A DNA stretch of 64,000 bases from Tsukamurella paurometabola DSM 20162 (lineage in GTDB: Bacteria > Actinomycetota > Actinomycetes > Mycobacteriales > Mycobacteriaceae). Positions within the stretch are counted from its first letter, which is position 1. Every line of letters begins with the position of its first letter. Location of the stretch: positions 3,906,001 through 3,970,000 of the forward strand of contig NC_014158.1 of assembly GCF_000092225.1 (NCBI RefSeq), written 5' to 3'. Positions 14,513 through 63,647 of this stretch are shown here, one piece after another. The notes under the pieces were generated by a model. The model was not told where the DNA came from and did not search any database. It was given only the letters and a program-made list of their open reading frames with translations. The translations under genes were made by a program, and so were the position numbers.

Positions 14513-14526
14513 TGGAACGTGTTCTA
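14513..14526. promoter_or_regulatory. KstR operator overlapping the hsaE promoter
   Basis: TGGAACGTGTTCTA is a full match to TnnAACnnGTTnnA. Its last two bases start a TAGTAT -10 box (14525-14530) exactly 6 bases before the hsaE ATG, implying a leaderless, KstR-repressed transcript. Confidence 0.9.
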
Positions 14527-14536
14527 GTATGGCGCC

Positions 14537-15322
14537 ATGGATGACTCCGCCGTCGCCGCCGCGGCCGACGCCCTGCTGGGCGCCTACTCCGCCGGGGCGC
14601 CGATCGACCCGATCATCGGTACCTACCCGGACGCCACGATCACCGACGCCTACCGGATCCAACAGGAGCAGGTGCGTCGCTGGGAGGCTGCCGGCGACCA
14701 CGTCAAAGGCCACAAGGTGGGCCTCGCTTCACTCGCCATGCAGCGCCAGATGAACGTCTACGAACCCGACTTCGGCCATCTCACGGCCTCGATGTTCCAC
14801 CTGGAGCATCTCCCGATCGACGCATCCGGATGGCTGCAGCCGCGGATCGAACCGGAGATCGGCTTCATCCTGGGCCGCGAGTTGACAGGTCCGGGCGTCA
14901 CCGTCGCCGACGCGATCCGCGCGATCGACTACGTGGTCCCGGCACTCGAGGTGGTCGATTCCCGGATCCGCGACTGGAACATCTCCATCGTCGACACGGT
15001 CGCCGACAACGCCTCGTCAGGCGGGGTGGTGCTGGGCAGCAAGCCCACCAGAATCGACGCCCTCGACCTCATCGACGTGGGCTGCACGTTCTGGATCGGG
15101 GGGCAACAGGTCGGTACCGGAACCGGTGGCGCCGTGCTCGGTTCGCCGATCAATGCCCTGGTGTGGCTCGCCAACACGGTCGGCCCGCTGGGAACGACGC
15201 TCGAACCCGGGCACGTCGTCCTGCCCGGCTCCATGACCAGGGCCGAATCGGTCCGGCCGGGCGACACGATCATCGCCGACATGGGGCCGCTGGGTTCCGT
15301 GACCGCGGTCCTGGCCCCCTGA
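14537..15322 (+). CDS. hsaE: 2-hydroxypenta-2,4-dienoate hydratase HsaE
   Basis: This 261-residue member of the fumarylacetoacetase-like hydratase family (MhpD/HsaE) carries KGHKVGLAS near residue 58, the metal-ligand region ARIEPEIGF-type (here RIEPEIGFILGREL) and VVDSRIRDW. It hydrates the dienoate released from 4,9-DSHA by HsaD to 4-hydroxy-2-oxo acid, the substrate of HsaF. ATG 14537 is 6 bases after the -10 with no ribosome site, so translation is probably leaderless. The ferredoxin follows by 20 bases. Confidence 0.93.
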   Translation: MDDSAVAAAADALLGAYSAGAPIDPIIGTYPDATITDAYRIQQEQVRRWEAAGDHVKGHKVGLASLAMQRQMNVYEPDFGHLTASMFHLEHLPIDASGWLQPRIEPEIGFILGRELTGPGVTVADAIRAIDYVVPALEVVDSRIRDWNISIVDTVADNASSGGVVLGSKPTRIDALDLIDVGCTFWIGGQQVGTGTGGAVLGSPINALVWLANTVGPLGTTLEPGHVVLPGSMTRAESVRPGDTIIADMGPLGSVTAVLAP

Positions 15323-15342
15323 GTCCCACGAACGGAGAAAAC

Positions 15343-15531
15343 ATGAAGATCATCATCGGCGACGCCTGCACCGGATTCGGTGTCTGCGAGGGTATCCGTC
15401 CGGACGTCTTCGAGGTCAACGACGAGGGATTCGCCGAGGCCACCGACGAGGGCCTCACCGACGCCGACCGCGAGGACATCGAGTACGCCGCCTCCCAATG
15501 CCCCACCCAGGCGATCCGCATCGAGAACTGA
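15343..15531 (+). CDS. Small 3Fe-4S/4Fe-4S ferredoxin (FdxD-like)
   Basis: This 62-residue ferredoxin has Cys 9, 15 and 53 in a C-x5-C...CP arrangement; the central position between the first two Cys is Phe 12, so a 3Fe-4S cluster is most likely. Such single-cluster ferredoxins feed electrons to cytochromes P450. M. tuberculosis FdxD (Rv3503c) lies in the KstR regulon next to the fadE26-27 block, whereas here the gene follows hsaE. Possible partners are Cyp125 (this window) or a Rieske oxygenase elsewhere. ATG 15343 is preceded by ACGGAGAAA. It is co-transcribed with hsaE. Confidence 0.85.
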   Translation: MKIIIGDACTGFGVCEGIRPDVFEVNDEGFAEATDEGLTDADREDIEYAASQCPTQAIRIEN

Positions 15532-15544
15532 GCCACTCCCGCCT

Positions 15545-15559
15545 TAACAGCGTTAGCCC
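15545..15559. repeat. 15-bp repeat TAACAGCGTTAGCCC, copy 2
   Basis: Exact direct copy of the 14431-14445 sequence; it forms the left arm of the hairpin downstream of the ferredoxin gene. Confidence 0.8.
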
Positions 15560-61510: not shown

Positions 61511-61527
61511 GTCCGTGCTTCTCCTTG

Positions 61528-62397
61528 TCAGCCGGCCAGGAAATCGGCCGTGAGCCGGTTGAACTCGTCGAACTTCTCGAGCTGAGCCCAGTGGCCGCAC
61601 TGTCCGAAGACGTGCAACTGGGCGCGCGGAATCTGCTTGAGCGCAAGCAGCGCACCGTCGAGCGGGTTGACCCTGTCTTCCCGGCCCCAGATCATGAGCA
61701 CGGGCTGGCGCAGCTTGTAGGCATCACGCCAGAGCATGCCCTTCTCGTAATCCGCGGAGGCGAACGACTTCCCCATGGCCGTGAAGGCGGCGATCGCTTC
61801 AGGATCGAGCGCGAGATCGAACCGCTCCTCGATGAGCTCGGGGGTGATCATCTTCTGGTCGAACACCATGATCCGCAGGAAGTCTTCGAGCCGCTCCTTG
61901 CTCGGTGCGGCGTAGAACCTCTGCAGCGTCCGCAAGCCCTCGGTGGGATCGGGGGCGAAGGTGTTCACGCTGAGCCCGCCGGGTCCCATGAGCACAAGCC
62001 GCCCCGCGCGCTCCGGAAAGTCCAGCGCGAACCGCACGGCCGTACCGCCGCCGAGCGAATTGCCCACCAGGTGCACACGTTCGGTGATGCCGAGCGCGTC
62101 GAGGAGTCCGGCGAGCGCCGTGGCGCTGTGCACGAAGTACTGCGGATGCTCGGTCGGCTTATCGGACCGGCCGAAACCCGGCTGATCGACCGCGAGCACG
62201 TGAAACCGCTGCGCCAGCACCGGAATGTTGCGCCCGAAGTTGCTCCACGACGACACGCCAGGACCGCTTCCGTGCAGCAGCACCACGGTGCCGCTGTCGC
62301 GGTTCTCCTCGCCGGCCTCGTGGTAGTGCAGCGTGAGACCGGCTGCGGTGGTGGCGAACTTGCCCTCCTTGAGGACATCGACCTCGGTCTCGGGCAC
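61528..62397 (-). CDS. hsaD: C-C bond hydrolase HsaD
   Basis: This 289-residue alpha/beta-hydrolase (MCP hydrolase family) has catalytic Ser 114 (GNSLGG), Asp 241 (WGREDRVNP) and His 269 (GQCGHW), the same numbering as remembered for M. tuberculosis HsaD. It cleaves 4,9-DSHA to HIP (DOHNAA) and a dienoate for HsaE. GTG 62397 begins 2 bases after the hsaA stop, with only a weak upstream GGATGG, so coupling to hsaA translation is likely. Confidence 0.95.
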
Positions 62398-62399
62398 CG

Positions 62400-63575
62400 T
62401 CAGACCATCCCATCCATCACCGGCTCGCCGAACTCGCCGGTGCCGAACATCTTGTACGCCCGCTCCGGATCGTTCGCCGCGTGGACCCGCCCGGCATGCG
62501 CATCGCGCCAGAACCGCTGAATCGGGGTGCCTTCCGCGAGCGCGCGACCTCCGGAGTTCTCGAACATCCGGTCCACGGCGAAGATCGCGCGTTCGGTGCC
62601 GCGCACCTGGTCTCGGCGCACCTTCAGGCGCAGGTTGAACGGGATCTTCTCGCCCGCCTTCACTAACGCGTACTCGGCCGCGATGTTGCTGGTGAGCTGG
62701 AGCCAGGCGGCGTCGATCTCGCTGCCCGCCTCGGCGACCCGGACCTTGGCGAACGGATCCTCCTTGGCGTTCTCACCGGCATAGGCGGCGCGCACCCGAC
62801 CGCGCTGATGCTCGACGTGCGCGTCGTACGCACCCTGCGCCATGCCGATGATCGGCGCGGTGATCGTGGACGGATGCACCGATCCGAACGGCAGCTTGTA
62901 CAGCGGGCTGGTGTTGACCTCCTGGCCGGGGCCCTTGCACTTGCTGACCAGTTGGAAGCTCAACGCGCGATGCGCAGGCACGAAGACGTCCTCGACCACG
63001 ATGTCGTTGCTGCCGGTGCCCCGCAGGCCGACGGTGCGCCACACGTCGTTCACGCGGTAGTCGCTGATCGGTACGAGGTAGGTAAGGAAGTCGACCGGCT
63101 TGCCGTCCTGGAAGGCCGGACCACCGAGCAGTGCCCAGGTGGCGTGATCGCAGCCGGAGGAGAAGCTCCACTTCCCGGAGAGCCGGTAGCCGCCCTCGAC
63201 GATCTCCGATTTGCCCATCGGCGCATACGACGACGAGACCAGCGTGTCCTGGTCTTCGCCCCACACCTCCTGCTGGGCACGGTCGTCGAACAGGGCGATG
63301 TTCCACGGGTGGATCCCGAGGATGGATGCCACCCAGCCGGTGGAACCGCATGCGCTCGCGAGCATCTTCACCGCGGTGTAGAACTCGACCGGATCGGCTT
63401 CGAGACCGCCGTAGCGCACCGGCTGAAGCAGCCGGAAGAAGCCGCTCTTCTGCAGCGCCTTGATGGATTCGGCGGGAACGCGACGCGCGTCCTCCGTCTC
63501 CTGCGCGCGATCCCGGAGCGTGGGGAGCAACTCCGCCACCTCGGCCAGCACGGCGCTGACGCTCTGTTCGCTCAT
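62400..63575 (-). CDS. hsaA: Flavin-dependent 3-HSA monooxygenase HsaA
   Basis: This 391-residue acyl-CoA-dehydrogenase-fold (class D) monooxygenase has [87 protein letters not shown] and [16 protein letters not shown] (in parts). HsaA hydroxylates the phenolic 3-HSA to a catechol using FMNH2 from HsaB. ATG 63575 follows GAGGAAAC. It heads the hsaADCB operon under the operator at 63634. Confidence 0.95.
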
Positions 63576-63633
63576 GTTTCCTCGCTCTCTGCGATATTCG
63601 GACGGGCATCGCGCCGGCCGGTGGAACCGATAC

Positions 63634-63647
63634 TAGAACACGTTCTT
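63634..63647. promoter_or_regulatory. KstR operator of hsaA-D-C-B
   Basis: TAGAACACGTTCTT matches the consensus except for its last base. On the minus strand the operator ends in TA and continues as TAGTAT (63635-63630), the same -10 used at hsaE. Confidence 0.87.

Follow-up and report, generated by a model that had tools for sequence, protein, structure and literature searches.

KstR operators often appear to supply the first two bases of the -10 hexamer in steroid-catabolism promoters of Tsukamurella paurometabola and its family

How is the operator of a repressor fitted to the promoters that it controls when it lies almost on a start codon? This question is raised by a stretch of 64,000 nucleotides from Tsukamurella paurometabola DSM 20162 (contig NC_014158.1, positions 3,906,001 to 3,970,000; the whole stretch is called the window below, and positions are counted from its first letter), which contains kstR, the gene of the repressor KstR, and a set of KstR operators. 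A preliminary description of the sequence had proposed that the ends of these operators double as -10 boxes, the terminal TA opening a hexamer TAnnnT, and that one operator can thereby close both sides of a divergent promoter. We argue here that the operators are probably indeed often placed so that their terminal TA opens the -10 hexamer TAnnnT of the gene they face, where bound KstR would exclude the polymerase, and that, judged from the loci compared, this fusion belongs to promoters one by one.

The KstR operator palindrome TnnAACnnGTTnnA is present in the window. Scanning all 64 kilobases with the pattern TAGAACNNGTTCTA and allowing up to 3 mismatches, we obtained 22 matches against 3.9 expected, a number reached by none of 100 shuffled sequences. 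The sites at 14513, 20834, 29618 and 63634 have 0-1 mismatches, the site at 35447 has 2, and those at 32946 and 4345 have 3; the last, the mce4 operator, falls outside the range given in the preliminary description. The genes downstream of the operators are steroid-catabolism genes: HsaA (NF045629), a steroid thiolase (NF005889), EchA19 (NF051848) and the LLM protein (TIGR03559) scored above the model cut-offs, and the mce4 permease matches PF02405. The hsaE and fadE26 products matched broader or related models only, below their cut-offs; the names fadE26, hsaE and fadD8 are labels of the preliminary description, no NCBIfam cut-off of that name having been reached.

In what follows, +1 is the first base beyond the 14-base-pair operator, so that a terminal TA followed by T at +4 makes the hexamer TAnnnT. 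This hexamer occurs at 8 of the 15 gene-facing TA ends of the window (P = 0.004 for a T frequency of 0.20, P = 0.017 for 0.25), counted over every site down to the weak ones with 3 mismatches; the gene calls omit echA19, whose operator end was not scored as gene-facing. The other seven ends, which the preliminary description had left out, are 20834 left, 40006 right, 40154 right (fadA5), both ends of 44218, 53302 right and 63622 right. Hexamers lacking T at +4 at such ends include TACCCA (fadA5), TACCTG (echA20) and TACCAA (fadD3). The boxes listed earlier for hsaE, fadE26, LLM, DUF35, mce4, hsaA, the NMO-like gene, the aldehyde dehydrogenase and fadD8 are all where they had been placed (Table 1), and two of the listed hexamers are not the same fusion: TACTGT at echA19 takes its TA from operator bases 11-12 rather than from the terminal bases 13-14, and TTCACT at DUF35 is not a TAnnnT hexamer.

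The family-wide comparison comprised 96 loci from 56 genomes, collected around fadE26 and a second acyl-CoA dehydrogenase hit, with genes called by a codon model; two extra stretches of the T. paurometabola genome itself were kept out of this set. From an 80-locus set, L001-L005 and L007 were inspected, L003-L005 being without a fadE26 match. When up to 2 mismatches were allowed, the 96 loci gave 250 sites with 478 distinct ends; sites more than 60 nucleotides inside a called gene had been dropped, as had 20 duplicate ends (498 to 478). Where an end reading GTTCTA faces a gene start within 150 nucleotides, T stands at +4 in 101 of 189 cases, compared with 8 of 36 where the end faces none (p = 9e-4); for gene-facing ends beyond 150 nucleotides the share is 66% of 74. 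The figures were similar without the two Tsukamurella loci (98/184 gene-facing, 8/36 other) and when each distinct 10-mer was counted once (86/161 versus 6/28, p = 0.002). Weighted by gene group and genus, the frequency of T at +4 was 0.50, against a mean of 0.18 over positions +5 to +40 (standard deviation 0.047, maximum 0.31). Sorted by type of gene-facing end, T at +4 follows TA in 116 of 232 cases, CA in 6 of 54, TT in 5 of 9, TC in 2 of 8, TG in 0 of 4 and GA in 0 of 2. Since this T is enriched on gene-facing ends and scarce after CA ends, it probably belongs to the promoter and not to KstR recognition; it goes mainly with TA and therefore behaves as a -10 hexamer should. T at +2 is non-directional, being present at 56% of the gene-facing and 69% of the other ends, and together with G at +1 it looks like an extended symmetrical KstR half-site. 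The preliminary description had staked its proposal on nnnT being more frequent than chance across the KstR sites of relatives, and the counts on gene-facing against other ends and after TA against CA ends bear it out.

The distance from hexamer to start codon leads further. Among the 62 called genes of the window, a TAnnnT hexamer ends 6 nucleotides before the start in five (hsaE, fadE26, LLM, the gene at 2549 and fadD8 at 35392) and 7 nucleotides before it in one, with none at the other distances from 0 to 13. Among the 1564 called genes of the compared family loci, taken irrespective of KstR sites, 62, 38 and 11 have it at 6, 7 and 8 nucleotides, whereas every other distance up to 19 accounts for 0-5. 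Judged by spacing, this peak at 6-8 nucleotides is a leaderless signature. An in-frame ATG or GTG 9-11 nucleotides past the operator, which refers to frame and spacing and does not imply actual use of the codon, was found at 29 of 110 gene-facing ends with TAnnnT and at 14 of 184 others (p = 2.5e-5). These 29 starts lie at 10 (16) or 11 (13) nucleotides, 26 of them outside Tsukamurella and 3 within, and when each gene group is counted once per genus, an in-frame codon lies 10 or 11 nucleotides on in 19/66 versus 7/103. Across 151 whole family genomes, the pattern AACNNGTTCTANNNT-N6-RTG has 295 matches in 110 genomes, 44 of them in 10 Tsukamurella genomes, and the reversed-pattern control has 4. 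Requiring any base but T at +4 gave 115 matches (control 41), and N10 spacing gave 82 (control 4), some of which also carry a start at 6 nucleotides. The T. paurometabola genome has one more such site outside the window, TAGATT-6-ATG at 1036808 (L301), whose frame is open for 66 codons to the end of the stretch. At hsaE, fadE26 and LLM the start codon follows the TANNNT box by 6 nucleotides, as at the family spacing peak, and for this reason it is a well-supported prediction that their mRNAs are leaderless and start at the ATG. The earlier claim of leaderless mRNAs at these three genes thus fits the spacing peak, as well as the conservation described next, and keeps its status of a prediction.

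The comparison within Tsukamurella covered 16 genomes and the promoters named below; a fadA5 query found a match in 0 of 14 relative loci, and a cyp125 query, among the rows listed, an off-target stretch or nothing. The hsaE arrangement is present in 14 of 16 loci (TAGTAT in 11, TACCAT in 2, TAATAT in 1), with 7 instead of 6 nucleotides to the start in L201, and the other two loci are without the site. All 14 loci having fadE26 show TACAGT, 6 nucleotides and ATG, and all 15 having LLM show TAnnnT, 6 nucleotides and ATG (TAGATT in 13, TAGGAT and TACCAT in one each). At the NMO-like gene 13 of 15 loci have a site, with TAGTTT (12) or TAATTT (1), and hsaA has TAGTAT (14) or TACCAT (1) in 15 of 16, the remaining locus being without a site. 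TACTGT at echA19 is unchanged in the 13 loci with the site, TAACTT on the fadD8 side occurs in 13 of 14 loci, and TTGCGC together with TTCACT at DUF35 is kept in the 13 loci that match the pattern (the window counted; L227 and L228 unmatched). By parsimony on a tree of hsaA and hsaE, the gene-facing ends of hsaE, fadE26, LLM, the NMO-like gene and hsaA, taken together, stayed constant at +4 while positions +1 to +3 changed 12 times; on the far side, +4 changed 6 times at hsaE and once each at fadE26 and hsaA.

Positions, statistics and conservation thus agree on a shared register, its direction and its spacing to the start codon. From these we infer recognition by sigma factor, start sites, steric block, induction and the closing of the other side as follows. 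The terminal TA of the palindrome would open a hexamer TAnnnT of the housekeeping -10 type. A KstR dimer on the operator would cover the -10 region, so that the bases needed by RNA polymerase are also those held by the repressor and the polymerase can neither bind nor melt the promoter; release of KstR by the steroid-CoA inducer would open the promoter. At hsaE, fadE26 and LLM transcription would then begin at the ATG and give leaderless mRNAs, while hsaA and the NMO-like gene would use the same box for mRNAs that have a leader and a Shine-Dalgarno sequence. Normally, one operator would give the -10 box of one promoter, in the window only 29618 giving both in register, and the divergent neighbour is presumably repressed via another promoter part or a second operator. 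A KstR operator has reportedly been mapped by Uhia in 2011 as overlapping the -10 and -35 regions of MSMEG_5228; if so, this would be direct support for the single-promoter case.

The use of the fusion differs between groups of genes. TAnnnT follows TA ends in 29 of 37 cases in the hsd4B-like reductase group (18 genera, with varied nnn), in 22 of 33 in the kstR group of relatives, in 21 of 24 in a ferredoxin-like group without a match in the window and in 8 of 8 in a ligase-like group, the last two being named from a reading of the sequences. For hsaE the count is 4/4 and for fadA5 3/6. The arrangement TAGCCT-6-ATG is found at fadA5 in three genomes that belong to a single genus; the Rv3545c/Rv3546 probe that Kendall 2007 (PMC1995591) lists as bound by KstR contains this operator with its TAGCCT hexamer.

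Several observations weigh against our interpretation. About half of the gene-facing GTTCTA ends (88/189) are without T at +4, and the TT ends show that the tie of this T to TA is not absolute. Some groups are hardly fused (fadE27-like 5/20, fadE34-like 6/30, mce4 1/22, DUF35 0/8). For fadE26 itself, the ends in other genera have TAnnnT in 3 of 53 cases, none at the 6-nucleotide spacing, and a fused operator 6-7 nucleotides before the start was found in 0 of 54 other-genus loci; the operator, where seen, lies farther upstream, and many loci have none within 70 nucleotides. The genomes share kinship, so the p values overstate independence. Finally, the unchanged +4 within Tsukamurella is on its own modest evidence and no proof, because the far-side +4 of fadE26 and hsaA changed just once each.

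These points have to be set against what other explanations can offer. If T at +4 were an extended KstR half-site, the resemblance to a -10 hexamer would be a by-product of recognition. The symmetrical look of G and T at +1 and +2 and the TT ends speak for such an extension, but KstR binding is symmetrical, and yet T at +4 is found at 53% of gene-facing against 22% of other ends, is scarce after CA and comes with start codons 6-7 nucleotides downstream. We therefore rejected T at +4 as a KstR recognition base and consider this explanation very unlikely. That the hexamers are chance hits picked with a loose motif is harder still to believe: seven of the 15 window ends do not fit, and 8/15 alone gives no more than P = 0.004 to 0.017, but the family-wide controls, the spacing peak and the T that stays unchanged under varied nnn in Tsukamurella are not what chance would give. 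Another possibility is that KstR represses as a roadblock or by blocking an upstream region, with the fusion reflecting packing in short intergenic regions. The position of the operator relative to the gene indeed varies widely in relatives, and Kendall 2007 (PMC1995591) noted sites inside genes, where blocked progression was suggested. However, loose packing would not lead one to expect the TA/TAnnnT register and its scarcity after CA, and we regard this possibility as unlikely.

The remaining alternative is the one put forward in the preliminary description, that one operator is built to feed opposite -10 boxes and thus shuts two divergent promoters at once; 29618, 32946 and 35447 had been given as examples. 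Only 29618 answers to this. Its outward-facing hexamers lie 10 base pairs apart and are in register at both ends; besides the TAGATT-type box that faces LLM in 15/15 loci, TAnnnT faces the aldehyde dehydrogenase in 13 of 15 Tsukamurella loci with six different nnn, and the two exceptions (TACAAA, CACATA) are in the loci least like the window in their LLM protein. At 32946 the echA19-side box is shifted by two bases, and at 35447 the DUF35 side has TTCACT and the fadD8 side a rival box, so that neither shows the register at both ends. Among 47 divergent sites of relatives with TA at both ends, TAnnnT occurs at no end in 9, at one in 33 and at both in 5, compared with 9.8 expected at both if the ends were independent, and is thus not above chance; counting divergent sites with any type of end within 200 nucleotides, both-end fusion occurs in 3 of 79. 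We therefore rejected both-end fusion as a design rule, and it is doubtful that the operators are built for it. A pure case does occur in a relative (L308, 960-1030), where a single TAGAACGTGTTCTA lies between TAGAAT-6-ATG, opening a frame of 163 amino acids, and TAGACT-6-GTG, opening a frame of 267 amino acids that by eye reads like an enoyl-CoA hydratase. Both frames are open, and the 34 base pairs between the start codons make this the smallest bidirectional case found. A possible, if tentative, reading is that KstR operator and core promoter form a portable composite, AACnnGTTCTAnnnT-N6-start, found repeatedly across the family at genes without relation to each other, L308 being its extreme form that serves two divergent genes; two polymerases at L308 would then have to exclude each other as well. 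The operator 29618 may be a slightly longer version of the L308 form.

Towards the aldehyde dehydrogenase, ATG 29596 sits 17 nucleotides after the TAGGAT of operator 29618, and a second, conserved box (TAGAGT/TACAGT; 29596-29619, minus strand) ends 5 nucleotides before the same ATG. As a leaderless -10 box this second hexamer was rejected, TAnnnT at 5 nucleotides being found in 1 of 1564 family genes; because hardly any gene of the family shows this spacing, we prefer TAGGAT as the putative -10 box, with a leader of about 10 nucleotides. The aldehyde dehydrogenase frame itself (28014-29596, minus strand) breaks in the window after 38 codons near 29490, the long frame running from 29483, and is unbroken from ATG 29596 over the compared stretch in 12 Tsukamurella relatives; the break may be a frame shift or a sequencing error.

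At 35447, the conserved TTGCGC-18-TTCACT-6-GTG reads as a candidate DUF35 promoter. The rival box on the fadD8 side, TACCGT (35404 down to 35399), lies 6 nucleotides before ATG 35392; it is found in 12 of 13 compared rows, with TACGGT in the other, and an ATG follows by 6 nucleotides only in the window and L215. Of the 13 rows, 3 contain ATG 35428. With these counts, TAACTT was rejected as a clear -10 box of fadD8. The fadD8 frame (33527-35392, minus strand) continues for about 128 codons after its family match stops and overlaps a convergent gene, echA19 (about 33030-33826, plus strand).

Table 1 Positions of kstR, KstR operators and putative -10 hexamers in the window
Feature	Position	Strand	Remarks
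kstR	3679..4305	+	208 amino acids, TetR family; phmmer against solved KstR chains 5ua2 (E 4e-66), 3mnl, 5cw8, 5aqc; PF00440, PF17925
Weak KstR-like site (3 mismatches), mce4	4345..4362	+	Fused TAGTTT 4357-4362; upstream of MlaE/YrbE permease gene 4436 (mce4 operon)
KstR operator TGGAACGTGTTCTA, hsaE	14513..14530	+	Fused putative -10 TAGTAT 14525-14530; 6 nucleotides to ATG 14537
KstR operator TAGAACTTGTTCTA, fadE26	20834..20851	+	Fused putative -10 TACAGT 20846-20851; 6 nucleotides to ATG 20858
KstR operator TAGAACTTGTTCTA, LLM (Rv3520c-like)	29618..29635	+	Fused putative -10 TAGATT 29630-29635; 6 nucleotides to ATG 29642
Fused TAGGAT, aldehyde dehydrogenase side of operator 29618	29614..29619	-	Start ATG 29596
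KstR operator 32946-32959, NMO-like gene	32942..32959	-	Fused TAGTTT (32947 down to 32942); ATG 32911; Shine-Dalgarno leader
TACTGT towards echA19	32956..32961	+	TA = operator positions 11-12, other register
KstR operator 35447-35460, fadD8 side	35443..35460	-	TAACTT (35448 down to 35443) towards fadD8
DUF35 candidate promoter	35433..35462	+	TTGCGC 35433-35438, 18 nucleotides, TTCACT 35457-35462, 6 nucleotides, GTG 35469
KstR operator 63634-63647, hsaA	63630..63647	-	Fused TAGTAT (63635 down to 63630); ATG 63575; Shine-Dalgarno leader

Two further promoters of the window deserve mention. A KstR2-like repeat, recognized by eye from the KstR2 motif as printed in PMC8228715, lies left of the echA20 palindrome (44190-44240), and such repeats lie on both sides at fadD3 (53250-53345). 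Because they adjoin KstR-like palindromes, the echA20 and fadD3 promoters may answer to both repressors. Upstream of kstR (3541-3700), the scan that allowed 3 mismatches gave no palindrome, and a weaker GATAACCTGTTTCA was seen by eye only; this weak site contrasts with the strong kstR operator published for mycobacteria.

For that mycobacterial operator, in M. tuberculosis and relatives, Kendall 2007 (PMC1995591) reported a 14-base-pair palindrome, TAGAACnnGTTCTA, that lies upstream of the -10 region of kstR, partly overlaps it and was inferred to block RNA polymerase, and found many sites between divergent genes; binding of KstR and derepression without KstR were shown. This resembles the arrangement described here. 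The kstR motif reads GTTCTAATAG, and since its +4 base is G, the published overlap is not in the TAnnnT register. In that paper the start sites are said to be unmapped, and the word "leaderless" does not appear. For kstD3 of Rhodococcus ruber (PMC5348764), a KstR-box promoter was likewise proposed to be leaderless; 23 base pairs upstream of the ATG suffice in vivo, and a -10-like TATAAC lies inside the KstR motif. In contrast to the present case, the -10 box proposed there falls in the opposite half of the motif, and for kstD3 the assay of start sites yielded no result. In M. tuberculosis, TANNNT was found 7-12 base pairs upstream of 73% of primary starts (Cortes 2013). The studies of mycobacterial SigA-type TANNNT promoters and leaderless mRNAs (PMC3898074, PMC6448022) agree with our findings in the -10 box, its spacing and the lack of a conserved -35, but they concern promoters in general, and KstR is mentioned in neither main text. 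The CrtR site of Corynebacterium glutamicum (PMC5401885) also lies between divergent genes and overlaps one promoter, its own gene being reported as leaderless. CrtR, however, belongs to the MarR family and has another operator, and a motif change over the -10 hexamer left binding unaffected, so that its site is not fused to the -10 box.

The fused register reveals no new mechanism of repression. It indicates where recognition by the repressor ends (at +2) and which base serves the promoter (+4), explains strong operators almost on the start codon and helps the annotation of start codons in steroid degraders. To summarize, the -10 overlap at kstR, TANNNT boxes and leaderless mRNAs in general and the proposed leaderless kstD3 were known before; new, within the open-access literature searched, is not the kind of mechanism but the regulon-wide register with its controls, which extends a remark made on kstR alone to a rule of defined register, by which leaderless genes under KstR control can be predicted from nothing but the sequence.

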